This document shows positions 32,146 to 49,828 of a stretch of DNA of 54,517 nt, in pieces. A model generated the notes under the pieces. The model was not told the DNA's origin. It searched no databases and saw nothing but the letters and a program-made list of their open reading frames with translations. The stretch lies in the NCBI GenBank assembly GCA_016936575.1, contig JAFGXQ010000016.1:1-54517 (forward strand), read 5' to 3'. The position numbers and the translations under genes are program-made. The stretch's first letter is position 1. Each line of letters begins with the position of its first letter. The DNA is from Deltaproteobacteria bacterium (GTDB lineage: Bacteria; Myxococcota_A; Polyangia; JAAYKL01).

Positions 32146-33588
32146 CTAAAACTCCGCGAAATCCGGATCATCCTCCATCGGTATAACCTCTTCTGCAGAT
32201 ATCTGAACGGAAGATTTATTTGCCATGCGGCGTTGGGTTCGATTGTCGTTTATCGGCGGCATCGTAGGGCGTATACGCCCACCAGGGTTCAGTTGCGCGT
32301 CAATTCGAAACTTCGCCACCAAACTCAGAAGTTCCTGGGCCTGACCGGCCAGTTCCTCAGATGCGCTCGATGATTCTTCGGAATTCGCCGCCGCCCGTTG
32401 GGTAACCTTGTCCATCTCGATCATTGCTTTGTTCACTTGTTCAATCCCCCTCGCCTGCTCATGACTGGCAACGGTGATCTCCGAGATGATGTCGGTTACC
32501 TTACCGACAGATTCAACCATACCAAGCAGATTCTCGTTCACGTCGGCAGAAATGGATTCTCCGGTTTCAGCAAGTTGTACCGATTCTTTTATCAGCGACT
32601 CGGTATTCTGCGCCGCGTCCTTCGCTCGACCGGCAAGATTGCGAACCTCTTCGGCCACCACCGCAAATCCACGACCGGCATCCCCCGCGCGCGCCGCTTC
32701 AACCGCCGCATTCAACGCCAGCAGATTGGTCTGGAACGCGATGTCGTTGATGTCTTTTATAATCTCGGCGATGCGTTCCGCGGCGGTCTTGATTTTTCCC
32801 ATTGCGCCCACCATGCGCTTCATTTCAACCGTGCCTTTGTTCGCCGTGTCTCGCGTTCCCTCTGCCAGCCCTTGCGCCTGTCGTGTGTTGTCGGCATTCT
32901 GCTTGGTCATACCACTCATTTCTTCCATACTCGATGTGGTCTCTTGCAGTGAACTCGCCTGCTCCGAAGCTCCCTCAGCCACCTGTTGAGAGCTTACCGA
33001 GATCTGCTGCGCCGCGCTATTCACCTGATTCACCGCCAAGCGCACCTGAGCAATCGCGTCATGCAGCACCTCGCCGGTACTGTTCAGCGCATTTTTAATC
33101 TTGGCGTGATCTCCGCGATACTCGCCTTTGACCCTCGCTGTCAGATTATAGTTGGCCAGCTCGTCGAGCACATTCGAGGCCTCATTTATCGGAGTTAAAA
33201 TGGTATTGAGCAATTCATTCACACCCTGAACCATATCGCGCCACCCACCGCTGAACTGAGACTGGTCACCACGCACACTCAATTGACCGTCTCTGGACGC
33301 ATCAATCAGTTTCTTAATTTCATTCGATGTCTTTTTCAGGTTTGCCCTGACGTCCTCGATAGTGTCATTGATAAACGCTTTTTTCCCGGGGAACCTTTCC
33401 AGTGGTGCATCAAAATTGCCCAGACCGAATTCCTTCACACACGCCATCGCTTTTTTCTTCACGGCGATATGGCCGTTCACCATATTGTTGACGCCATTTG
33501 CCATATCTTTAAAGGCGCCCTCAAAATGGCTCGCCGGAATGATCACATCTATATCGCCCGCATCGTGTTCCCGGGACATATGATTCAT
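32146..33588 (-). CDS. Chemoreceptor C-terminal fragment (HAMP-like repeats and MCP signalling domain)
   Basis: The 3' part of a methyl-accepting chemotaxis protein gene. From the first in-frame ATG at 33588 it codes for 480 residues: HAMP-like segments (about 1-130, e.g. GGWRDMVQGVNELLNTILTP) and the cytoplasmic signalling coiled coil, with the conserved hairpin tip EAARAGDAGRGFAVVAEEVR that contacts CheA/CheW. The same frame continues upstream of this ATG without interruption to a TAA at 33715-33717, and the intervening codons (YVARISRGDIPQPITEHYEG) are typical conserved chemoreceptor sequence. There is no good ribosome site before the ATG, so independent translation is doubtful. Without membrane helices this piece could only act as a soluble receptor core, if it is made. 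Confidence 0.75.
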   Translation of the reverse strand: MNHMSREHDAGDIDVIIPASHFEGAFKDMANGVNNMVNGHIAVKKKAMACVKEFGLGNFDAPLERFPGKKAFINDTIEDVRANLKKTSNEIKKLIDASRDGQLSVRGDQSQFSGGWRDMVQGVNELLNTILTPINEASNVLDELANYNLTARVKGEYRGDHAKIKNALNSTGEVLHDAIAQVRLAVNQVNSAAQQISVSSQQVAEGASEQASSLQETTSSMEEMSGMTKQNADNTRQAQGLAEGTRDTANKGTVEMKRMVGAMGKIKTAAERIAEIIKDINDIAFQTNLLALNAAVEAARAGDAGRGFAVVAEEVRNLAGRAKDAAQNTESLIKESVQLAETGESISADVNENLLGMVESVGKVTDIISEITVASHEQARGIEQVNKAMIEMDKVTQRAAANSEESSSASEELAGQAQELLSLVAKFRIDAQLNPGGRIRPTMPPINDNRTQRRMANKSSVQISAEEVIPMEDDPDFAEF

Positions 33589-33714
33589 TTCAGTGATCAG
33601 ATCACCGATAGCCCGAATCAGATGATTGATGCTGGTTTTGATTTCGTTGAAATCGCCTTCATAGTGTTCGGTGATGGGCTGTGGAATATCCCCTCGCGAA
33701 ATGCGAGCGACGTA

Positions 33715-35019
33715 TTACGCAGAAAACTGCAGCGGGGCAATAACGGCATCCAGCGCACCATTGAACGCAACCAGCATCTCCTTATAATCACCGATGGCAC
33801 CGGCAGAAGCGGCACGGGTCTGCAGCTTGCCGTCCTGCAATGCATTTGCCGTATCTGCCACAGATTGAATCACCTCATCGACCATTTTCTTGTTGGCCTC
33901 TTCCGCGGCGTTTTTCTCCCGCAGATTTGAAATCATCTGCTTGAATGCGGTGGCCAACTGCCCCACCTCGTCACGTTGATTTAACGCGATCTCCTGCGAC
34001 AGATCGCCTTCTGACACTTTCACCGCAACTTCCTTCAATGAAAAGATAGGCCCCGTCATTTTCCGCGCCATAACAACAGCAAAACCGATGGCGAGCAATA
34101 TACCGACCACAGCCGAGATCAGGATGGTCATGGAAGAACGCTCATTGCTCGCCTGAACCACCAGACCGAGCGCGTCCTGCTCCTCCTTAATCGACAATTT
34201 CACCTGTTCCGCCTGCTCCGAAATGTGAAGCCCCATGGCATCGAGCTTTTCTTCAATAATCGAATTTCGTTCGGAAATATACCTCACCACACCGTCAAAT
34301 CCCTCCATGTAAGTGAGGAATGCGTCTTCAAAATCACTGAGCAGCGCCTGCTGCTTCTCCGTTCGAACGGTGGGTTTCAATTTTTCCAATTTCTGTTCGG
34401 CGCTTTCCTGCTCTGCCCGCACTCGCTTCGCATCGGATGGCGAGTTGGAGTCGAGATATTTCGCGAAGTAAATTCGGGCGAGTAAAAAATGCTCCTGCAA
34501 ATCCCCTCCGGACAATGCCGCGGCGGTGTCATTCACTTTTGCAGAAAACGCCACAAACTCAGTCATTTTTTCCCGCGCCGAGCTCCCGGCAGGGTCCATC
34601 AAATCAGAAACCAGCTCGTCCCGCTTACCCTGAAGCACAACAACTTCATTGAAATGCTCTCGATATACACCCAGGTCCGAGGCAATATTCTTCACAGTCG
34701 CCGCCCTCTCCGGGTTCTGAATCCGCGCAAGCGCTTCGCCGGCAAATTTTTCCACCGCTTCAAAGTGCTCATTGAACTGTTCGACAGATTGCTTGTTATT
34801 TGTCTGAATGAAGTTCTTCACCTGAAGTCTCGCGTCCAGCAGATTGGCCTGCAGTCTTCCCATCAACACGTTGTCGCGGGCAATCTCTCTATAATCTCGA
34901 AAACCGCTCCCGGAGGTATTAAATCCGGTCCACGATACCACCGCCAGAATGGCAAGCAGCGCAATACAAACGCCGAATCCTCCGCCGATTTTTTTTCCGA
35001 TTGAAATGTTGTCCAGCAT
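33715..35019 (-). CDS. Chemoreceptor N-terminal fragment (sensor and HAMP domain)
   Basis: The 5' part of a methyl-accepting chemotaxis protein gene, 434 residues. A first membrane helix (about 12-32) is followed by a helical periplasmic sensor of about 265 residues with long coiled segments, a second membrane helix (about 298-318, MTILISAVVGILLAIGFAVV) and a HAMP domain (about 320-375), then the start of a second HAMP-like unit ending in IAPLQFSA before the TAA. It lacks the signalling domain, so by itself it cannot talk to CheA. The next in-frame codons resume the expected sequence (see the joined entry). Its promoter would lie in the 283-base divergent gap. Confidence 0.78.
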   Translation of the reverse strand: MLDNISIGKKIGGGFGVCIALLAILAVVSWTGFNTSGSGFRDYREIARDNVLMGRLQANLLDARLQVKNFIQTNNKQSVEQFNEHFEAVEKFAGEALARIQNPERAATVKNIASDLGVYREHFNEVVVLQGKRDELVSDLMDPAGSSAREKMTEFVAFSAKVNDTAAALSGGDLQEHFLLARIYFAKYLDSNSPSDAKRVRAEQESAEQKLEKLKPTVRTEKQQALLSDFEDAFLTYMEGFDGVVRYISERNSIIEEKLDAMGLHISEQAEQVKLSIKEEQDALGLVVQASNERSSMTILISAVVGILLAIGFAVVMARKMTGPIFSLKEVAVKVSEGDLSQEIALNQRDEVGQLATAFKQMISNLREKNAAEEANKKMVDEVIQSVADTANALQDGKLQTRAASAGAIGDYKEMLVAFNGALDAVIAPLQFSA

Positions 35020-37722: not shown

Positions 37723-39435
37723 ATGAGAAAATTTGCCGCCGCGTTTATGAAAATGGGAATCGCCCGAAACGGAAAGCCGATGCTGAATCGTCTGAACGCG
37801 GAGAGCACAGATGTACGCCTTTCCCAGCAGCGGGTACTCAATGATATAATTGCTTACGCAGCGAACACTGTATATGGTCAAACGCACAAGTTTCAATCAA
37901 TACGCACCCCCGCCGAGTTTCAAAGCGCGGTCCCGGTAAATCAGTACGAGTCGCTGCGCCCATATGTGGAGCGTCACGAAAAAGGCGAACCGAATGTATT
38001 GTTTCCGGGAAAACCGATGTTCTATGCAACCACCAGCGGCACCACCGCCGCGCCGAAACGAATTCCCATCACCCGAAAATATCACGACGAATGCTACAAC
38101 GGATTGTCGAACCTGTGGCTTCATACGATGTTCATTCAGAACCCGGGCTTCATGAACGGGTATGACATCAGCATGGTGGGAAAGGCAATAGAAGGATATA
38201 CCCCCGACGGCACCAGTTTCGGCTCTTTTTCGGGTCACATGAACGCCTACATGCCGGAATTCATCAAACGATTTAGAGTGGTCCCGTTCGAAGTGCACGA
38301 CATAGACCATTATCCATCAAAGTATTACGCACTTCTGAGAGTGGCGCTGATGTATCCGATTCGTTGGATTGTCGCCGCCAACCCCAGTACGCTGTTGGAG
38401 CTTCACCGATTTGTAATGGAGCGATATGACGACATCGTGCGGGACATTGCAGACGGTACCCTTCGCAGCGACTTGAACATTGATGTGCCCATTCGCCGAG
38501 CAATCGAACAGAGACTTTCGACCAACAAAAAACGGGCATGGCAACTCACCGCGTTACAAACCGCATTCGGTGACGCGCTGCGCCCCAAACACTACTGGCC
38601 CGGCTTGCAGGTAATCAACACATGGAAAAGCGGCAATGCGGGGTTGTACCTGAAACAGACCGAGGGATTTTTTCCCGATGATGCGGTGATTCGAGAATTC
38701 GGTTACCTGGCCACCGAAGCAAGAGCCGGTATTGTTCTGGGCAACAACGACGAGACCAGTATACTGGCCGCTCACCTGCTTTACTTTGAGTTTGTTGAGC
38801 GGGACGAAAAAGATTCAAAACATCAGACTTTTCTGCAGGCGCATGAACTGGAAGCGGGAAAAGAATATGGCATTTTCATTACAACGCCCAGTGGCCTGTA
38901 TCGGTACGACATGAACGACATCGTTCGGGTGGAAGGGTTCTACAACCAGTTTCCGCGTATTCGCTTTGTCCAGAAAGGAACCGGAGCCACCAGTCTTACC
39001 GGAGAAAAACTGTACGAAGCGCAATATCTTGACGCCATGACAGACACATTGGCCAAAATGAACCTGACATCCGCCTTTCATGTGGCGTTTGCCGAACTGG
39101 AGAGTTCGAGTTACCAGAGCTTCGTTGAACTGAGTCCATCGCCGCCTCCGCCGAAAAAACAACATATTCTCGATGCCATGAGCCTTGAGCTCGACGAACA
39201 ATTGCAAAAACGAAACCCGGAGTACGCTGCAAAACGAAAATCCAATAGACTACGGCCGCCGGTACTGCATTCACTGCAACCGGGGGCTTTCGTGAAATAT
39301 AAATCATTGAAGCTGGCGCAAGGCGCGCGGGAAGGTCAATTTAAAATGACCCATCTGCAACAGGATGACGCGCAACTCGCACTCTTTCGCTCACTGTGCA
39401 ACGACGCATACCTCGTATCTGGAGGAACCATATGA
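37723..39435 (+). CDS. GH3-family adenylating enzyme (acyl-acid-amido synthetase-like)
   Basis: A 570-residue member of the GH3 family, named for plant auxin and jasmonate conjugases, which adenylate a carboxylic acid and join it to an amino acid. The ATP-binding motif is visible at about 100-117 (YATTSGTTAAPKRIPIT), the central motif in YLATEARAGIVLGNN, and the third motif in YRYDMNDIVRVEGFY followed by FVQKGTGATSLTGEK. An AGAGAGGAT ribosome site precedes the ATG. The stop codon overlaps the start of the polyketide synthase gene (ATGA), so both are made together. By inference it activates the polyketide product, or the starter acid, as an acyl-AMP; a CoA or amine acceptor is unknown. Confidence 0.88.
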   Translation: MRKFAAAFMKMGIARNGKPMLNRLNAESTDVRLSQQRVLNDIIAYAANTVYGQTHKFQSIRTPAEFQSAVPVNQYESLRPYVERHEKGEPNVLFPGKPMFYATTSGTTAAPKRIPITRKYHDECYNGLSNLWLHTMFIQNPGFMNGYDISMVGKAIEGYTPDGTSFGSFSGHMNAYMPEFIKRFRVVPFEVHDIDHYPSKYYALLRVALMYPIRWIVAANPSTLLELHRFVMERYDDIVRDIADGTLRSDLNIDVPIRRAIEQRLSTNKKRAWQLTALQTAFGDALRPKHYWPGLQVINTWKSGNAGLYLKQTEGFFPDDAVIREFGYLATEARAGIVLGNNDETSILAAHLLYFEFVERDEKDSKHQTFLQAHELEAGKEYGIFITTPSGLYRYDMNDIVRVEGFYNQFPRIRFVQKGTGATSLTGEKLYEAQYLDAMTDTLAKMNLTSAFHVAFAELESSSYQSFVELSPSPPPPKKQHILDAMSLELDEQLQKRNPEYAAKRKSNRLRPPVLHSLQPGAFVKYKSLKLAQGAREGQFKMTHLQQDDAQLALFRSLCNDAYLVSGGTI

Positions 39436-42400
39436 CAAAACAACACTCGAACCAATCACGAACCCCCATCGCCATCTGCGGTATCGGTTGCCGATTTCCC
39501 GGTGGTGCGGACAGCCCGGATAAATTCTGGGAATTGCTGAAAAATAAAACCGACGCCATCGGCCCGGTTCCCGCTGACCGATGGGACGCGGATGCCCTGT
39601 TTGACCCAAACTACAAGACCGCCGGCAAGATACACGTAAAGGAAGGCGGATTTATCGAAGGCTTCGATGAGTTCGACGCATCTTTTTTCGGTATCGCACC
39701 GGTGGAAGCCCACAGCATGGACCCCGCACATCGGCTACTGCTGGAACACACCTACCAGGCATTTGAAGACGCAGGGGAGCCGCTCAAAAAACTCGAAGCG
39801 AGCCGCACCGGTGTGTTTGTCGGAACGTCGTCATCGGAGTATGCCGGCATTATGCAAAACTACTCGGAACGCGCCAGCATCAACGCGCACACCAATACGG
39901 GCAGTTCTCCGTCCATCGCAGCCAATCGTCTATCGTACGTATTTAACCTGAAAGGCCCCAGTTTCGCGGTGGACACCGCGTGTTCATCCAGTCTGATCGC
40001 CGCTCATCTGGCGTGTCGGGCCATCTGGAACAACGAAGCGACCGGCGCGGTGGTCGCCGGCGTGAATCTGATCATCAAACCGGAGCTGCACATCGGGTTC
40101 AGCACCGCCGGTTTTCTATCACCCGATGCACGCTCAAAGTCGTTCGATGCCCGCGCCAACGGATATGTGCGCAGTGAAGGCGTAGGCGTGTTGTACCTGA
40201 AACCACTCGACAAAGCCCAAGCGGACGGCAATAAAATTTACGCGACCATTATCGGCAGCGCTATCAACGAGGACGGCCGCACCGGCGGCATCGCCCTCCC
40301 CAACCCCGATGCGCAGGCGGATGTAATGCATCTCGCGTACTCAGATGCGGGGATATCACCTTCAGAGGTAAGTCTCGTGGAAGCGCACGGCACCGGTACC
40401 GCAGCGGGTGACCCCATTGAAGCCGGGAGCATCGGAAAAGTCATCGGCGCAAATCGCCATGATCCAGTGGTTATCGGCTCCGTGAAAAGCAACATCGGAC
40501 ATACGGAGTTGGCATCGGGAAGTGCCGGTCTCATCAAACTGGCACTATCGCTCAAGCACAAACAGGTTCCCCCCACGGTTCATTTTGAAACCCCCAACCC
40601 AAAAATCGATTTCGACGGCCTTCACATTCAGGTGGCTGACCGCCTGCTGCCGCTTCCCGAAAAAAACGGCACCACGTATGCAGGTATTAACTCGTTCGGG
40701 TTCGGCGGAGCCAATGCGCACCTGGTGCTCCAGTCGTACACACCTGCGCCTGCGCCACTACAGAAGGAAGATAAGGGGATTCCCCTGCCGCTATTTATTT
40801 CCGCGCGGGATGAAGCAGCCCTCAAGGATCTGGCTTCTTCGTACAAATCTATGCTGGTGAAAAACCAAATGTCTCTATCTGATATAGCTTCATCTGCTGC
40901 GTTGCACCGTTCTCAGCTGGAAATCGGAACCGCTATTGTGGCGAAAAATTCCGAAGACGCCGTTGAACGCATCGACGCCTTTCTGCGCGATTCCCCCGAT
41001 CCATGGGTGCTCTCAAACCGTCCCGACCAATACGACGCCGACACTGTCGCGTTTGTTTTTTCGGGTCAGGGGCCTCAATGGTATGCCATGGGCAGGCAGC
41101 TATTGCAGGAGAACAAAACATTCCGCGATACCATCGAAGAAGTGAATCAGCACCTGCAGCGCCTGGGATGGTTGAAAGAAGAGCAAAGCTCCCTGCTTGA
41201 GGAACTGCAAAAAGATGAGGAGACCAGTCGCATCAATGAAACCCACATCGTGCAGCCGGCACTGTTCGCGCTGCAAGTGGGCCTCGCACGCATATGGATG
41301 GATATGGGAATCACCCCCGACATGGTGGTCGGACATTCCATCGGAGAAGTGGCCGCCTCATGCATCAGCGGTGCCTTGTCAATGGAAGACGCGGTGAAGG
41401 TGGTCTTCTGGCGCAGCCGTTGCCAATCCAAAGCCAGTGGGCGCGGGAAAATGATGGCCATCGGGCTCTCCGCGTCAGAGGCGACGCCGCTGCTTGCGCA
41501 ATTTCACGGAAAAATTGACATCGCCGCAATCAACGGTCCGAAAATGATCACCGTTGCCGGTGATACAGAAGCATTGGATACGCTGGGAACGATGCTGGAG
41601 GACGACGGCGTATTCAATCGTATGCTGGTAGTCGATGTACCGTTCCACAGTTACCTGCTCGACGATGTTGCCGAAGAGTTTGTTCGAGAAGCCGCTATCA
41701 GCCACGGGAAGCCCACAACTGTTCCGATGTATTCCACCGTGCACGGCCGCATTGTTGCTGGAACAGAAATCGATCAGATGTACTGGGCGAAGAATATTCG
41801 GCAGAGCGTACTTTTCTACCCCACTGTTGAACAGATGATTGCCGACGGAGCGAATATTTTCGTGGAGATCAGTCCGCATCCAATTCTTGCACACGGAATC
41901 AATGCCGCCCTGGAATCGCATGAAAAAAAAGGAAGTGTTGTCGCCTCTCTTAGAAGAAAGGAAGACGAATCGCTCAACATCGCCCGCGCATATGCACAGC
42001 TTCGGTTGGCCGGGCACGGTGTCGATGTCTCTACCTTCTGTGGTGAAAGGTCGGCCTCGTATCAGCAGCTCCCCCACTATCCATGGCAGCGGGAACGGTA
42101 CTGGCAGGAATCAACCAACGCGACAGCCGAAAGGTTGGCCACACGAGTGCACCCGCACCTACTCAAATCCCATGTAGCGGCGGACAACCCGAACAACGTT
42201 ATCTGGGAAGTTGAACTGGATGCGAGATCTGCGCCGTACATACTCGACCATCGTGTGCAGGGGCCGTTAGTGTATCCCGGTGCCGGGCATGTGGATCTTG
42301 CTATTGCCGCAGGTCGCGCATCATTTGGGGACAAGTTCGGATTTCTGGAGGACATCGAGTTCATCAAGCCACTATTCCTGAAAGACAAAGGAACACCCCA

Positions 42401-45400
42401 TAAGGTTCAGATCCATATTGATACAGACGACGGCGCTTTTGTCATCGCAACCTTGAACGAAGAAAAATCCAACTCGGAATGGGTGGTCCACTCCAGAGGA
42501 AAAATCAACCATATTGGCGATCGGTTTGAAAGCAAGCCGGTGACATTGGCGGTATTGAAATCCCGCATTGACGAACCGGTTGAGGTAGCACCTTTGTTCG
42601 ACGTCCTAAATGCCGGAGGACTGACGTTGGGCGAAACCTTTCGCGGAATTATTGAATTGAAAAGAAAAGGGGAGGAAGCACTTGGAAAAATACAAACCCA
42701 CCCCAGTATCGCTCCACTGGTGAATCAGTACAATCTACACCCTGCACTGTTGGACGCATCATTTCAGTCCGCGTTCGGGATTATTGAAGATCGGCAAAAC
42801 ATGGGTGTGTACATTCCGCGCAATATCGACCGCGTGAAATTCTACAATCAGCCAAACGGCGAGTTCATTTACTCATACGCACATGCGCGAAAGAATGAAT
42901 CCGAAACCATTCTGGTAGACCTCTGGATATTCAACGAAGATGGATCACTCATCGCAGAAATACAGGGATTCCTCGGAAAATATCTGAAAGGCTCGCGGGG
43001 AGAAACCGAAGGTGAGTTGGACACCTTGTACTACACATACGAAACCAAAGAAGTGGAACGAACAGCGGAACTACAGAACCGACAGCCGGAGACATACTTC
43101 GCTACGCTCAATGACGTCGACATTGCGTTGACGCAGCAAATCGAAACCATCTCACGTGAAGATCGATTTCAGCCATTTCTTGAAGATTTGTCTTCGGCAA
43201 TGGACGATCTGGCAATGGCCTACGTATTCGAAACATTCGACCATTTCGGAATGCCGCTTACTCCCGGAAATATCTTTGCTGTCAGCGGCACCGAATGCAA
43301 TCTTGAGATTACTGAGAACCAGCGAGCGTTGTTCGAACTCATCTTGAAAACGCTGGAACAGCGCAACCTGGTTTCCATTGACGGCGCACGCTGCGAAGTG
43401 CGTTCTCACGAGACCCCGCTGAGTGTCCACACGACGGAACACCGGCATGAGCGCGTTTTGTCGCAATTTCCTGAAGAACATCGATTTTTCAAACATGTGG
43501 GTGAGAACCTTCACAATGTGCTTGTAGGGAAAACAGATGCGACAGAAGTACTGTTTGCACAAGAACGTTGGGACGAAATTGTTCAATATTATACAAGCGC
43601 CTATTCAATGGACAAATACAACCGGTTAGCGGCGTCCGCAGTCCGGCGATTGCTCGCAGATACACACGGAAATAAAATTCGGATACTTGAAATCGGCGGC
43701 GGCACCGGCGGCATCACCCAGGCGATACTGGCCGAGTTATCGGAGGTGAACTATCAGTACATGTTCACTGACATTTCCCCCTCTTTCCTCGACAAAGCCA
43801 AACAGCGATTCGGCGAAAATGAGTGCATGGTATATGGATTGCTGAACATTGAGAACGATCCGAAGAGCCAGGGATACGTTCCAGGAAGCTACGATATTGT
43901 CATCGCATCCAACGTGCTGCATGCGACCCAAGATCTCACGGTCACACTGGAGCACACACGTTCTCTTCTTGCCCAAAACGGCATTCTGTGCCTGCTTGAA
44001 GTATCGAATGTACCGTTGTATGTGGACCTCAGCTTCGGTATGACCGAAGGATGGTGGCGGTTCAACGATGCCATCCGTAAAGACAGATGTACGCTGACTG
44101 GGCCCAAATGGTGCAATACGCTCAATGAAGCCGGATTCCGCAACAGCCGCGCATTCTGCGATGTAGATGAAGGACCATGGCCCTCTCAGAACATCATTGT
44201 GGCAGAGGCGTCCGGTGAAATCGAACAGCCGGTTGAAAAAAGAGTTTCCCGAACCTGGGTAATACATCCCGATCAACAAGGAGTGTCCCAATTCATTGTC
44301 AATCAACTGAAGTCAACCGACGACCGTGTGGTGCAAATTGTATCGGACGATACCACTCACTGGGTTGATAACAATACATATGGCCTCGCACCCAACGATG
44401 AAACAGGGCTGACAACGCTGATTGGCACCTTGTCAGAAAAACCGCTTTCGGTGCTGAACACTCAACTTCTCGACCTCGTACCGAACAGCGATAATGAACC
44501 GCCGGATATTCTTAAAATCAACGATGCGTTGTTCCGGAATGTCCGTATTTCGAAAGCCATCATCGAAGCAGCGCCGACCGATGCGAAGATTATCTGTGTT
44601 ACACAGGGTGTATATTCGGATGTACCCAATCTCGCGCAATCGCCCGCATGGGGTCTGCAACGGGTCATGTTCAACGAGCTTTCCGATGCAGATGTTCGAA
44701 TTGTGGATATAGCTGACACATCAACAGAAACACTTCAACAGTTGGTGACGGAGCTGTTGGATGAAAATGAGTCAGAAGAAGAGATTATTCTGAAGAACGG
44801 TAAACGATATGCGACACGTCTGGAACCGATTTCCGCCGAAAAAAGAGCCGTTGTATCAGCAACAAATACCAATACGGCAGGTGCGCACATTCATCTCGTC
44901 CCATCAGAAACGGGCGTTCTATCGCAATGTGCGTTTGTACCCAAGGATGTGACACCGATTGCAGCTGATGAGGTCGCCATTGCGGTTTCTTATTCTGGGC
45001 TGAATTTCCGTGATGTGATGATTGCGGGAGGTAACATGCCGCCCGACGCTATACGCGGAGGCATATTTGTCTGTCATCTGGGATTGGAATGCAGCGGCAC
45101 CGTTATCGAAGTGGGCGCGGCTGTCTCCCATGTCGTGAAGGGAGACGCTGTCATCGCGATTGCAGCGGATACCATTTCGGAGCGTACTATTGCCAAATCC
45201 GCGTATGTTCGGAAACTGCCGAAACAAATCGACTTGCGTACCGGCGCGGCACTTCCGATGGCTTCCATCACAGCGTATATGGCACTTTACAAACTGGCCA
45301 ATATCCAAACAGGTGATCGCGTTCTGATACATGCTGCGGCCGGCGGTGTCGGGTTGATGGCAGTGCACTTCGCACTGCATCAGGGGGCTACGGTTTTCGC

Positions 45401-47810
45401 CACTGCATCCAAGCCAAAACACGAGCTACTCTCCAAACTGGGTGTGCAGTATATTTACGACTCCAGAAACACCGCGTATTACAGCGACATTATGGCAGAT
45501 ACAGATGGGAGAGGGGTCACGGTGGTGATCAATTCTCTGTCAGGGGCACATAACACCCAAAGTATGAAACTGCTGGCGCCTATGGGACGATTCGTTGAAA
45601 TCGGAAAAAAAGATTTGTATGAAAATAAAAAAATCGGCATGAGACTGCTCGCCGACAATATTTCGTATTTTGCGCTGGATGTGGACCGATTACTGGCTCA
45701 GTCCCCTGCTTTCATGTCCGAAGCGTTTTCAGAAGCGCTCGAACTACTGGAGCAACAGCAGTGGCCGGCAATTCCAATCACTGACGTTCCGTTTTCGGAA
45801 GCCGCCAAAGCAATGGTACAGATGGCGAAAGGCAATCATACGGGAAAAATTGTACTCGCTTCCGGTCCGGTCTCTGTCCGGGCACCGTCTCATTTGAAGC
45901 TTCGCACAGACGCCACATATCTGATAGCCGGAGGCACCCGTGGATTCGGTCTCGCAGTAGGACAAATGCTCGTGCAGAAAGGAGCACGTCACCTGTCATT
46001 GGTGTCTCGCAGCGGATTACACGGTGCAGAGGAAACCGCAATCGTGCGCAAGTTGAAGGAATCCGGAGTGAATATCGAAGTCCACAATGTGGACATCACA
46101 AATACCAACGGCGCACGCGCGCTGATCAAACGAATTCATCGTGCGGACCGCCCTCTTGCGGGTGTGTTTCAGTCCACTCTGGTGCTTGAGGACGAACTGA
46201 TGCATAAAATGTCAAAGGAGCAGTTACTTCTTCCAATCCAACCCAAAATCAAAGGAACATGGAACCTTCATCAGGCAACAGTAGACATCAACCTGGATTA
46301 CTTCGTCATGTTCTCTTCGGTTTCTTCCCTGTATGGGTTACCCGGCCAGGGCAACTATGCTGCGGGAAATCGCTTTCAAGATGATTTTGCGAGGTATCGT
46401 CGCGCCATGGGAAAACCGGCAACTACGATTAACCTTGGACCGCTCGCAGATACCGGATTTGTGTCAAGAGAAAATAAAGTAAACGATTATCTGGCATTAA
46501 GCGGATGGTCTCCTCTTGCGACGAAATCAGCGCTGGCAGCATTGGAAACAGTGTTGAACGAAAATCACACGCAGATGGGAGTATTCAATCTGGATTGGAC
46601 ACAACTTGCAAAATCCTTCCCGAAAATTGCCGCATCTCAGCGCTTTGCGTCCATCGCCGCAATGCAAAACAAGACTGACGTAGCTACGGCGGAAGACACT
46701 GATGTTCAACAAAGGCTCATTGCGGCGAATGCCCACGAGAGAGAGCCAATGATCCGAAAACTGCTCGCTGCTGCAATGGAAGGTATTCTGGGAATCGATC
46801 GCAACAATATCGATTTCGAAAAGCCAATCAACCGCATGGGCATGGACTCTCTGATGGCCAACCAGTTAAGAAGCATACTTACCACACAGACCGGAGTGGA
46901 ATTCTCGCTTATGCAAATAATGCAGGGGCCCCGTCTTTCAGAGTTGGCCCGGGAGATTCAACAACACTTTGAGACAACAAAGCAACCGGCGGCGGGTTCA
47001 ACACCAAATATAGAACACAATGCGTGGGCAGCGCCCATCGAAGTCAAATCGACACTGAAACTGCGTCTGTTCACGCTTCCCTATATGGGCGCTGGTGCGT
47101 CGGTGTACACGGGACTCGACCTGGGTGAAGATGTCGAAGTATGGCCCATTCAATTGCCTGGCCGCGAAAATCGAATTGAAGAGCCGGCGATCTATCATGG
47201 CGAAGAATTGATCGCAAAAATGGCAGATGCTATCGAGCCGCTGCTCGATCTTCCTTTCGCGCTCTACGGACACAGCTTCGGTGGAAACATCGCGATGAGT
47301 CTCGCGTCATATCTTCAGGAAAAGAAAGGAAAAATCGCACAATGCGTATTTATCGGCGCGGCAGTTCCACCGGGCGTTGACAACCCGTTGGAGAAAGAAT
47401 TTCAAATTGCCGATACCCACGACGCGCTGCAAATGTCTGAAGAAGCAATGACGGCATTGCTTGAACGAATCGGTACGCCGAGTTCTCTGTTGAAAAACCA
47501 AGCAGCTATCTCTTCAATGATGCCCTGTTTGCGAGCGGATCTGGCGATTACCAGACAGCGACTTTTTCCGTTGGACCATGTGCTGACATCGCCGATTGTG
47601 GCCATCGCAGCCGACAATGATCATATTTACTCTCCCTCGATGCTGGCCGGCTGGAAAAGCCATACCAATACATTCAAATTGGCTCAAGTACACGGGCGAC
47701 ATCTATTCATTCACGAGGACGTCGCCAAAGCGGAACTCCGCGACATTATAACAATGGAACTCCGATCCATAGCGGGCCATTCCCTGACACGAATCAGTAA
47801 AAGTGCATAG
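39432..47810 (+). CDS. Single-module, fully reducing type I polyketide synthase with cMT and TE
   Basis: A 2792-residue synthase. The start at 39432 overlaps the GH3 stop and has GGAGGA eight bases upstream. Domains in order: KS (about 11-435; Cys184, His319, His357), AT (about 538-840; Ser636 in GHSIGE and the VPFHS motif, the malonyl-type form), DH (about 900-1170; His940 in HRVQGPLVYP, Asp1108 in DASFQ), C-methyltransferase (about 1290-1570; SAM motif LEIGGGTGG at 1419-1427), ER (about 1815-2130; AAAGGVG), KR (about 2150-2340; GGTRGFG, Tyr2309), ACP (Ser2473 in MDSL), TE (about 2550-2790; Ser2615 in GHSFGG). All active sites look intact. With one module it most likely works iteratively, giving a reduced, possibly methyl-branched chain released by the TE. 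Confidence 0.92.
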   Translation: MTKQHSNQSRTPIAICGIGCRFPGGADSPDKFWELLKNKTDAIGPVPADRWDADALFDPNYKTAGKIHVKEGGFIEGFDEFDASFFGIAPVEAHSMDPAHRLLLEHTYQAFEDAGEPLKKLEASRTGVFVGTSSSEYAGIMQNYSERASINAHTNTGSSPSIAANRLSYVFNLKGPSFAVDTACSSSLIAAHLACRAIWNNEATGAVVAGVNLIIKPELHIGFSTAGFLSPDARSKSFDARANGYVRSEGVGVLYLKPLDKAQADGNKIYATIIGSAINEDGRTGGIALPNPDAQADVMHLAYSDAGISPSEVSLVEAHGTGTAAGDPIEAGSIGKVIGANRHDPVVIGSVKSNIGHTELASGSAGLIKLALSLKHKQVPPTVHFETPNPKIDFDGLHIQVADRLLPLPEKNGTTYAGINSFGFGGANAHLVLQSYTPAPAPLQKEDKGIPLPLFISARDEAALKDLASSYKSMLVKNQMSLSDIASSAALHRSQLEIGTAIVAKNSEDAVERIDAFLRDSPDPWVLSNRPDQYDADTVAFVFSGQGPQWYAMGRQLLQENKTFRDTIEEVNQHLQRLGWLKEEQSSLLEELQKDEETSRINETHIVQPALFALQVGLARIWMDMGITPDMVVGHSIGEVAASCISGALSMEDAVKVVFWRSRCQSKASGRGKMMAIGLSASEATPLLAQFHGKIDIAAINGPKMITVAGDTEALDTLGTMLEDDGVFNRMLVVDVPFHSYLLDDVAEEFVREAAISHGKPTTVPMYSTVHGRIVAGTEIDQMYWAKNIRQSVLFYPTVEQMIADGANIFVEISPHPILAHGINAALESHEKKGSVVASLRRKEDESLNIARAYAQLRLAGHGVDVSTFCGERSASYQQLPHYPWQRERYWQESTNATAERLATRVHPHLLKSHVAADNPNNVIWEVELDARSAPYILDHRVQGPLVYPGAGHVDLAIAAGRASFGDKFGFLEDIEFIKPLFLKDKGTPHKVQIHIDTDDGAFVIATLNEEKSNSEWVVHSRGKINHIGDRFESKPVTLAVLKSRIDEPVEVAPLFDVLNAGGLTLGETFRGIIELKRKGEEALGKIQTHPSIAPLVNQYNLHPALLDASFQSAFGIIEDRQNMGVYIPRNIDRVKFYNQPNGEFIYSYAHARKNESETILVDLWIFNEDGSLIAEIQGFLGKYLKGSRGETEGELDTLYYTYETKEVERTAELQNRQPETYFATLNDVDIALTQQIETISREDRFQPFLEDLSSAMDDLAMAYVFETFDHFGMPLTPGNIFAVSGTECNLEITENQRALFELILKTLEQRNLVSIDGARCEVRSHETPLSVHTTEHRHERVLSQFPEEHRFFKHVGENLHNVLVGKTDATEVLFAQERWDEIVQYYTSAYSMDKYNRLAASAVRRLLADTHGNKIRILEIGGGTGGITQAILAELSEVNYQYMFTDISPSFLDKAKQRFGENECMVYGLLNIENDPKSQGYVPGSYDIVIASNVLHATQDLTVTLEHTRSLLAQNGILCLLEVSNVPLYVDLSFGMTEGWWRFNDAIRKDRCTLTGPKWCNTLNEAGFRNSRAFCDVDEGPWPSQNIIVAEASGEIEQPVEKRVSRTWVIHPDQQGVSQFIVNQLKSTDDRVVQIVSDDTTHWVDNNTYGLAPNDETGLTTLIGTLSEKPLSVLNTQLLDLVPNSDNEPPDILKINDALFRNVRISKAIIEAAPTDAKIICVTQGVYSDVPNLAQSPAWGLQRVMFNELSDADVRIVDIADTSTETLQQLVTELLDENESEEEIILKNGKRYATRLEPISAEKRAVVSATNTNTAGAHIHLVPSETGVLSQCAFVPKDVTPIAADEVAIAVSYSGLNFRDVMIAGGNMPPDAIRGGIFVCHLGLECSGTVIEVGAAVSHVVKGDAVIAIAADTISERTIAKSAYVRKLPKQIDLRTGAALPMASITAYMALYKLANIQTGDRVLIHAAAGGVGLMAVHFALHQGATVFATASKPKHELLSKLGVQYIYDSRNTAYYSDIMADTDGRGVTVVINSLSGAHNTQSMKLLAPMGRFVEIGKKDLYENKKIGMRLLADNISYFALDVDRLLAQSPAFMSEAFSEALELLEQQQWPAIPITDVPFSEAAKAMVQMAKGNHTGKIVLASGPVSVRAPSHLKLRTDATYLIAGGTRGFGLAVGQMLVQKGARHLSLVSRSGLHGAEETAIVRKLKESGVNIEVHNVDITNTNGARALIKRIHRADRPLAGVFQSTLVLEDELMHKMSKEQLLLPIQPKIKGTWNLHQATVDINLDYFVMFSSVSSLYGLPGQGNYAAGNRFQDDFARYRRAMGKPATTINLGPLADTGFVSRENKVNDYLALSGWSPLATKSALAALETVLNENHTQMGVFNLDWTQLAKSFPKIAASQRFASIAAMQNKTDVATAEDTDVQQRLIAANAHEREPMIRKLLAAAMEGILGIDRNNIDFEKPINRMGMDSLMANQLRSILTTQTGVEFSLMQIMQGPRLSELAREIQQHFETTKQPAAGSTPNIEHNAWAAPIEVKSTLKLRLFTLPYMGAGASVYTGLDLGEDVEVWPIQLPGRENRIEEPAIYHGEELIAKMADAIEPLLDLPFALYGHSFGGNIAMSLASYLQEKKGKIAQCVFIGAAVPPGVDNPLEKEFQIADTHDALQMSEEAMTALLERIGTPSSLLKNQAAISSMMPCLRADLAITRQRLFPLDHVLTSPIVAIAADNDHIYSPSMLAGWKSHTNTFKLAQVHGRHLFIHEDVAKAELRDIITMELRSIAGHSLTRISKSA

Positions 47811-47877: not shown

Positions 47878-49674
47878 CTAGTGCAATGTGTATTCAAGGC
47901 CCCAGATATTCGGAGATGACGCCTCTGGATATAGAATGGTGAGGTGATCTTCCTGCTGCAATCGCGTCGTATCAATCAGCGGGTCTGAAAAATATGAAAG
48001 ACTTGTGTCGGTTTCGAGCAGTGTCCAGTCTGAAAACTGCAGCGAAACAGAAGCCCCGGCAATACGTAGTCCCGGCAATACGGCATAAATGTTCCCTGAT
48101 GCAGCCACCGCCAAATTGCCCCTGTAGTTTTCAATCACCGAAAGACCGATGGCTTCCTGATGCCAGATACCGTCTGTATCACGCCAGTAATGATAGAATT
48201 CACTTTTGTTTCGCGCACTGGTAAAATTAGAATCGTCGGCCTGCCAATCGGGCATGTGCGAAAGCAATACATGTACCCTCCCCGCGCTATCCACCGCCAT
48301 GTGTTCCTGATTGATGAGTCCTCGATTCTGGGCAATCGTCCACACCCGCGCACTTGCCGTGTTCACAGTAACCAACGTACTCCCCGACGTCGCGACAACA
48401 CTTCCGCCGTTATCATGCCAGGAACGCCCGTGGTCATCGCTATACAGATAGAATAGGTCGTGGTTGGTTGTCGCATCCGGTGTTTCACGCCAGCACCAGG
48501 CCACATGAAGACGACTGCCGCCGGGGGTATACGATATTCCATGGAAGTATGCATTCACGCTATCGCTGATACCATCAACAAAGACACCGATGGATTGCCA
48601 TGCACCGCTTGCCGAATCGTATTCCCATATCGCTTCGTTTCCGCTCCCACTTTCGCCCAGGCGAACCGCAAGCAGCATTTTTGTGCCGCCGGGTTCTGTC
48701 ACAAAACGGGGGTACGTCACCAATGATATAGGGGTACCGGCTACCAGACTATCGCTCACGGCAGTAAAGCTCGAGGCACTCCACGCCACAGTGGTCGGAT
48801 GAGTCAACAATCCCGACACTGAACGTCGATAATGAAGTGTATTCCCATGATGATCAAACGATAAGTGCAGTGTACCGTCGCCAGGGCAAATACCCAGAGA
48901 AATGGTGTTGTGCGCATCATCTGCGGTGTTGGTGTAATCGTTGAATTCAAATTTTTCCCAATCACCCGACGGCAGTGCCCTTCTCGCCATCACCACATGA
49001 CGATTGGTGTTCCAGAATGCAGTGTACTGATATCCGTTATGCGTAACGATTCCCTCTTGCTGGAAGGACTCTCCATTTAGGTAGCCGCCGTACGAAACAA
49101 TCGTCAATCCGGAATAGGTCATCAGCCCACCTGTTTCTTTTTGCACTGCGGGAACAATCGATTCTCCGGTGTCGGTGTCGCTATCGCTGTCGCTATCGCT
49201 GTCGCTATCGGTGTCGCTATCGCTGTCGGCGTCTGTATCTGAATCGGTGTCACTGTCAGTGTCAGCATCCGCGTCGGCGTCCGTATCACTGTCAGTATCA
49301 CTGTCGGTATCGGTATCAGTGTCGGAATCGCTGTCCGTATCACTGTCGGCATCGGTGTCAGTGTCACTGTCGGTATCGGTATCGGTATCGGTATCAGAAT
49401 CAGTGTCACTATCCGTGTCGGTGTCGGCATCGGTATCAGAATCCGTGTCAGAGTCTGAGTCAGTGTCAGTGTCACTATCGGTATCTGTGTCCGAATCGTT
49501 ATCACTGTCGGAATCGCTGTCACTGTCAGAATCGGCATCGGCATCGGTATCGGTATCGGTGTCGGCATCTGAATCAGTATCGCCGTCTGCGCCTGTGGGT
49601 GTATTGTCTTCGCCACAAGATGCCATCCACACAGCAAACAAAATAAACATTAAAATTTCAAACCGAATTTTCAC
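47878..49674 (-). CDS. BNR-4 type beta-propeller lipoprotein, possible polysaccharide lyase
   Basis: Secreted 598-residue protein. I start at the GTG at 49674 because AGGGAG lies eight bases upstream and a clean lipoprotein signal peptide follows (lipobox MASC); an ATG at 49743 would add a non-signal-like stretch. After the lipidated Cys comes an Asp/Thr/Ser linker of about 150 residues, then a beta-propeller with [20 protein letters not shown] and repeated GxxW-like blades, resembling the BNR-4 family, which includes PL24/PL25-type polysaccharide lyases. The HNTI and FDHHGN residues occur in that family, but a catalytic assignment is not certain; it could be only a binding protein. It is convergent with the PKS gene, 67 bases apart. 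Confidence 0.78.
49166..49590. repeat. Low-complexity repeats encoding the Asp/Thr/Ser linker
   Basis: Irregular six-base units (tcNgtN) on the plus strand encode alternating Asp and Thr or Ser in the beta-propeller lipoprotein on the minus strand. Codons vary from unit to unit, suggesting an old expansion maintained by selection on the protein, not a recent slippage tract. Confidence 0.8.
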
Positions 49675-49828
49675 AATACGTTCTCCCTGATAGGTTTCTC
49701 CGTTAGATAAAATCAGCATATGCACCAAGAGCAGACGTCTCATCTAATAGTGTATTATAATGGCTCAAACGGGTAGCGAGCTTCAACCGAATTGCAAAAA
49801 TAATAGAAAATGACAGAGGATGCGTTGT

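Follow-up and report, generated by a model that had tools for sequence, protein, structure and literature searches.

A GH3-family enzyme paired with a single-module reducing polyketide synthase in Myxococcota: a candidate two-gene route to amino-lipids

In the window (the whole stretch of DNA analysed here, 54,517 nucleotides), a gene for a GH3-family enzyme lies directly upstream of, and overlaps, a gene for a single-module reducing polyketide synthase (PKS), and the two genes keep company wherever they were found in the host's family. A functional link between them within the family is well supported. As to their product, the reading that we favour, with the balance for and against it about even, is that a reduced, SAM-methylated acid freed by the thioesterase (TE) of the synthase is adenylated by the GH3 enzyme and joined to an amine to give an amino-lipid. 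This product would likely act as a specialised membrane or surface amino-lipid. The parts are of known kinds, and what stands out is the clean, conserved two-gene logic of the pair.

The initial annotation had described an ATGA overlap joining a GH3 gene to a synthase of the order KS-AT-DH-cMT-ER-KR-ACP-TE with intact motifs, a description borne out by Pfam matches and residue counts, with the ER checked by its nucleotide motif (Table 1). From the sequence of the junction, the two genes may be translationally coupled. The PKS is best started at the ATG within the overlap, which has GGAGG 7 to 11 bases ahead of it, although the ORF list gives a GTG start at 39396. By residue, the Pfam domains run KS 11–386, AT 541–858, DH 910–1183, methyltransferase 1419–1519, ER 1845–2142, KR 2161–2339, ACP 2445–2508 and TE 2545–2765. 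With one KS, one AT and one ACP, the protein forms one module.

Table 1 Coordinates of the gene pair, the PKS domains and the PPTase genes next to distant PKS relatives
Feature	Position	Strand	Basis or taxon
GH3-family acyl acid amido synthetase-like enzyme, 570 aa	37723..39435	+	Pfam
ATGA start-stop overlap, GH3 / PKS	39432..39435	+	sequence
Single-module reducing polyketide synthase, 2,792 aa (stop at 47810)	39432..47810	+	Pfam; catalytic residues; KS tree
KS domain	39462..40733	+	PF00109/PF02801
AT domain, VPFH motif of xxFH kind	41052..42005	+	PF00698; motif
DH domain	42159..42980	+	PF21089/PF14765
cMT domain, SAM motif and His/Glu positions intact	43620..44144	+	PF08242/PF13489; nearest solved structure CurJ
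ER domain	44964..45857	+	PF08240/PF00107/PF13602
KR domain	45912..46448	+	PF08659
ACP domain	46764..46955	+	PF00550
C-terminal TE	47064..47726	+	PF00975; nearest discrete type-II-like, medium-chain FAS thioesterases
PPTase genes directly 3' of PKS	L146:98-844, L147:9195-9929, L158:728-1474, L210:16291-17004		Bacteroidota, Spirochaetota

Catalytic residues were counted in 66 of the 120 PKS matches listed, namely those 2,550–2,900 aa long. All 66 carry the Cys-His-His of the KS, the Ser and His of the AT, the His and Asp of the DH, the His and Glu of the cMT, the Ser and Tyr of the KR and the Ser of the ACP. The KR Asn is present in 65, as are the Ser, Asp and His of the TE (one sequence has a gap), and the Phe of the AT motif in 61. 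The KS of the window PKS reads EAHGTGT. In the sponge-symbiont synthase SwfA the AT motif IAFH is taken as malonyl-specific (PMC3908369); this reading, together with VPFH here, suggests malonyl units, with methyl groups added from SAM by the cMT. The TE is nearest to a medium-chain FAS thioesterase, to 3qmw and 3qmv (both titled just ‘Thioesterase’) and to RifR. Such kinship to discrete type-II-like thioesterases is in keeping with the release of a free acid, as had been predicted from the sequence.

A KS phylogeny (FastTree, 216 rows), which samples the best 120 of 1,332 matches and was built without fungal, mycocerosic acid synthase (MAS) or SupA sequences, places the window KS with 68 single-module KS on one side of a branch with support 99. 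The opposite side holds 139 KS from 52 multi-module proteins and nine rows of other host KS, which repeat the same genes; two weak host KS matches were omitted. Membership of a multi-module assembly line, named by the initial annotation as the outcome that would tell against its proposal, is rejected by this tree. The same annotation had likened the synthase to fungal highly reducing enzymes. The likeness stands for domain order and fails for sequence, since among solved structures MAS, CurL and CurJ all outscore LovB: the closest whole-protein match is MAS (887 bits vs 685 for LovB), the closest KS match is CurL (447 vs 316 bits; 7zma is listed first, with two KS of about 330–340 bits each), and the closest cMT match is CurJ (171 vs 98 bits). 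Closest kinship to the fungal enzymes is therefore rejected.

The distribution of the pair was examined in a family sample of 14 genomes from ten genera, with assemblies 71–96% complete. The GH3 gene was found at 58–100% identity in five of them (G000, G001, G002, G005 and G010), the best GH3 in any other family genome being 41% identical. A full-length PKS (52–100% identity) is present in those same five genomes only, and neither this PKS nor this GH3 was found in the other nine. In all five holders, GH3 lies immediately upstream of the PKS. The ATGA overlap is kept in three of the five pairs, all in the host's genus, and in the other two the genes stand 53 and 26 bases apart. For this co-occurrence (all five holders, none of the other nine genomes) Fisher's test yields p = 0.0005, which serves as a guide because the genomes are related and the assemblies incomplete. 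The four pair-holding genomes other than the host are assigned to Myxococcota by the tree taxonomy.

The surroundings of the pair differ from holder to holder. In the window it is flanked by a kinase gene and a gene for a BNR-repeat protein; in L003 by genes for a phosphoesterase and a channel; in L004 by a response regulator and a small gene with no assigned family; and in L006 by an Asp/Ser/Thr-rich protein, likewise unassigned, and a VWA protein. L003 and L004, from the host's genus-mates, have genes further upstream in common, including an Omp85 protein, and no flanking gene is common to different genera in the loci read. In L005 a PPTase gene, cut by the contig start, lies upstream of GH3, so that PPTase, GH3 and PKS stand together and complete the PKS set. 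The pair has thus been kept while its surroundings change. Adjacency had been offered as a check on the initial proposal, and it holds in every family genome that has either gene.

Beyond the family, four more PKS matches lie on contigs equal in size to GH3-bearing ones (19,119, 35,691, 16,418 and 15,084 bases), which is circumstantial evidence for four extra pairs. With these included, there is a GH3 partner for nine of the 16 PKS matches that align over no less than 99% of the query at no less than 42% identity. The remaining seven have no equal-sized contig among the 120 GH3 matches listed, which may mean either that GH3 is missing or that the list gives a single contig per match. Over the nine pairs, four of them linked through equal-sized contigs, GH3 and PKS distances correlate with r = 0.90, a value reached in none of 10,000 permutations; such co-divergence is also expected from shared descent alone. 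One of the nine PKS-linked GH3 proteins, P0143, which was linked through equal-sized contigs, lies apart from the clade formed by the remaining eight.

More distant PKS relatives lack the GH3 neighbour. Among the best 120 of 1,332 matches, named relatives, each about 2,800 aa long, occur in Bacteroidota, cyanobacteria and Nocardia at 36–40% identity, and a full-length copy was found in two of 149 Bacteroidales genomes and one of 248 Spirochaetota genomes searched. No GH3 gene neighbours the PKS at the five distant loci inspected, comprising two Bacteroidales, one Spirochaetota and plasmids of Aureibacter and Persicobacter. The Aureibacter plasmid PKS, at 2,421 aa, has no methyltransferase domain, and the Persicobacter match is of similar length. 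In the four loci checked for it (two Bacteroidales, one Spirochaetota and the Aureibacter plasmid), a PPTase gene directly follows the PKS. These loci suggest that the wider unit consists of PKS and PPTase, with GH3 as an add-on that we infer was gained as a partner in the lineage of the window.

The GH3 protein itself has the N-terminal, middle and C-terminal GH3 domains of Pfam, at 208, 83.5 and 64.5 bits (cut-offs 23.6), and its predicted structure has the GH3 fold. This model is closest to the amide-forming plant GH3 enzymes, far above CoA-ligase and thioester-forming relatives, and the protein is predicted to adenylate an acid and hand it to an amine. The initial annotation regarded bacterial GH3 enzymes as poorly described, a view that is out of date: OlsH (Sinac_1599) of Singulisphaera acidiphila was shown biochemically in 2025 to be a GH3-like lyso-ornithine lipid synthetase that N-acylates ornithine using free fatty acid and ATP, without CoA or ACP, as described in PMC12493201. 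All three nucleotide-binding motifs defined there are present in the window GH3 (TTSGTTAAPK, GYLATE and YRYDMND, from an alignment with 77 other bacterial GH3 proteins). Identity with OlsH is ruled out, the window GH3 scoring 109.9 bits against the OlsH equivalog model NF052613 (cut-off 620). Six other GH3 proteins and P0143 score 87–120 in this comparison, which covered seven of the ten GH3 proteins initially picked. Asn174 and Met136 are common to the window GH3 and its nearest relatives, as seen in the first 20 of the 51 rows of alignment A1, which comprises the window GH3 and 50 others of the 120 GH3 matches listed.

A second GH3 gene is present elsewhere in the host genome. This second GH3 of the family was considered as the same thing and rejected, being about 40% identical and forming its own clade. 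No PKS of this kind stands beside it in the loci read, and its neighbours show no common theme in the ten proteins examined. The first scan took in 55 further GH3 loci, many with short flanks, and none of them has this kind of PKS; L009 carries KS/AT stretches of 25–32% identity on the opposite strand. Seven Spirochaetota loci with relatives of the window GH3 were read, and in four of them (L183, L185, L186 and L188) the two genes that follow include ones for a HAD hydrolase and a PF01553 acyltransferase. These neighbours may mark a separate aminolipid pathway. They constitute a lipid setting, which we count in favour of the amino-lipid reading.

Taken together, these observations permit a mechanism to be proposed. 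The PKS would run repeatedly on malonyl units, its cMT adding methyl groups from SAM while the DH, ER and KR reduce the chain, and hydrolysis by the C-terminal TE would then release a free acid. If the GH3 protein works as OlsH and the plant GH3 enzymes do, it would use ATP to form an acyl-AMP, which would be attacked by an amine (most probably that of an amino acid) to yield an N-acyl amide. This last step is supported because OlsH works with free fatty acid, ATP and ornithine, needing neither CoA nor ACP. The chemistry of such a route from PKS through TE to GH3 is plausible. We advance with less assurance, as a possibility that is somewhat against the odds, the wider proposal that the pair forms a fourth bacterial amino-lipid route beside OlsBA, OlsF and OlsHI. 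Here a dedicated iterative cMT/TE PKS would make a methyl-branched acid outside the ordinary fatty-acid pool, and GH3 enzymes of a group that co-evolves with it and is recognised by Asn174 and Met136 would then add an amine, so that Myxococcota and their relatives would have lipoamino acids of PKS origin.

The order of events could be the reverse, with GH3 acting before the PKS by activating a carboxylic-acid starter as acyl-AMP and loading the synthase, after which the TE frees the finished acid. GH3 precedes the PKS in each of the five pairs, and fatty acyl-AMP ligases (FAALs), which load other lipid synthases, often lie upstream of the synthase. A GH3 protein of 27% identity is also encoded inside a type I PKS cluster of a Streptomyces plasmid (L212:7983-9653), along with P450, aminotransferase, dehydrogenase and threonine--tRNA ligase genes. 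We take this cluster to be similar to that of borrelidin, in which the GH3-like BorL could presumably activate a dicarboxylic acid starter. Borrelidin is described as built from a dicarboxylic acid starter (PMC6697708). Several features tell against starter loading in the window, however. The PKS opens with its KS, from residue 11, and lacks a loading ACP; PKS relatives manage without a GH3 neighbour; and characterised GH3 enzymes transfer acyl groups to amines, the predicted model fitting these far better than thioester-forming ligases. We thus regard starter loading as unlikely, though it is the alternative to be taken most seriously.

The chemistry proposed for the amino-lipid could instead serve a small diffusible acyl-amide signal or antibiotic, if the chain were short and selective reduction left functional groups in place. 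The patchy presence of the pair, in five of 14 family genomes, is typical of specialised metabolism, and iterative PKSs are described as able to skip reductive steps (PMC3908369). Against this, the scan of ten neighbouring proteins between 27162 and 53946 (one without a match, and one further gene considered) found no transporter, resistance family or tailoring gene, and the genera read have no flanking gene in common. That scan also found no acyl-CoA ligase, in agreement with what the initial annotation had said of all but the tailoring genes. A signal or antibiotic is, on this evidence, a decidedly improbable product. A mere chance association, or one due to joint transfer, between two genes with unrelated jobs is very improbable: the host has a second GH3, so such genes are not rare here, and the Bacteroidota and Spirochaetota relatives keep the PKS without GH3, but the pairing in five of five holders with neither gene found in the other nine, the changing flanks, the start-stop overlap in three pairs and the equal-sized-contig partners down to 42% PKS identity all speak against it.

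The host assembly comprises 5.9 Mb in 252 contigs and is 94.9% complete. Elsewhere it carries two genes of the PPTase superfamily. Its remaining KS genes encode an NRPS-PKS hybrid (contig C145), double-KS proteins (C95, C249, C132) and shorter proteins with a single KS. The hybrid (L152:4812-13001, minus strand; 2,729 aa) has adenylation, KS, AT, condensation and carrier domains. The double-KS proteins (L153:7640-12232, L154:8802-11867 and L155:2609-5629, the last judged from its two KS matches) are perhaps PUFA- or glycolipid-synthase-like. Within the window, the BNR-repeat protein (47878-49743, minus strand) has an alpha-L-rhamnosidase match below the cut-off and, near its N-terminus, a stretch matching Ser/Asp-rich adhesin models. 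Two adjacent ORFs at 32146-35019 (minus strand) resemble a single chemoreceptor gene split in two: the upstream one (33715-35019, minus strand) has a sensor and a HAMP domain and ends in a weak HAMP-like match, and the downstream one (32146-33588, minus strand) has further HAMP domains and the MCP signalling domain. A scan for promoter-like sites (5 vs 9.7 expected) and terminator-like sites (15 vs 12.8 expected) was uninformative.

If the amino-lipid reading is correct, the pair would constitute a new amino-lipid route that joins a free-acid-releasing iterative synthase to a GH3 amide ligase, and would show how branched amino-lipids can arise in bacteria independently of ordinary fatty acid synthesis. 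It would also provide a compact source of branched N-acyl amides, with two genes, or three including the PPTase. Most bacterial GH3 proteins have no known substrate, and the pair offers a testable function for one group of them. Among the literature matches listed, with most subscription journals outside coverage, there was no paper on a GH3 enzyme paired with a single-module type I PKS, and none was found that brings together GH3, amido synthetase and type I polyketide synthase. To our knowledge, no GH3 amide ligase is known to work with an iterative synthase that releases a free acid.

Among known systems, OlsH offers a close functional parallel. The window GH3 resembles OlsH in its GH3 domains, its three nucleotide motifs, its predicted use of free acid and ATP, and its lipid context. 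Unlike OlsH, it has no adjoining alpha/beta-hydrolase gene and forms no operon with OlsI, its neighbours being the kinase and PKS genes; the TE domain of the window PKS has the alpha/beta-hydrolase fold too, yet is nearest to thioesterases. The methyltransferase genes near the window GH3 are RNA and tRNA ones, and the acid would come from the adjoining PKS. The Asn174 and Met136 common to it and its nearest relatives are a further point of difference from OlsH. From the plant enzymes JAR1, GH3.5 and GH3.15 the window GH3 differs in being bacterial and PKS-linked, with about 20% identity.

For the synthase, one comparison is with MAS and other lipid-making single-module synthases, which share the one-module design, MAS being the top whole-protein match among solved structures. 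MAS is not known to have a cMT or a TE, and the window PKS has both. The window PKS scores 1,089 against NF041183, the model of the MAS-related Pks2 (cut-off 2,400), and 391 against the PUFA synthase PfaA model TIGR02813 (cut-off 1,010), below the threshold in each case. Fungal highly reducing PKSs such as LovB have the order KS-AT-DH-cMT-ER-KR-ACP, which the window PKS shares, unlike them with an added TE.

Among bacterial enzymes, SwfA is described as a mono-modular KS-AT-DH-ER-KR-ACP synthase with the motif HATGT (PMC3908369), and SupA, also from a sponge symbiont, as a mono-modular PKS proposed to make branched fatty acids (PMC4245539). Both resemble the window PKS, SupA by its description, in having a single module and proposed fatty-acid-like products; SwfA differs in that the window PKS has HGTGT, a cMT and a TE. 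Finally, RubP3 is reported as a GH3 gene in the rubiginone type II PKS cluster (PMC8487521). Like the GH3 gene of the Streptomyces plasmid, it lies beside polyketide genes as in the window, although the RubP3 setting is a type II PKS and the plasmid one is a larger type I PKS cluster that includes tailoring genes.
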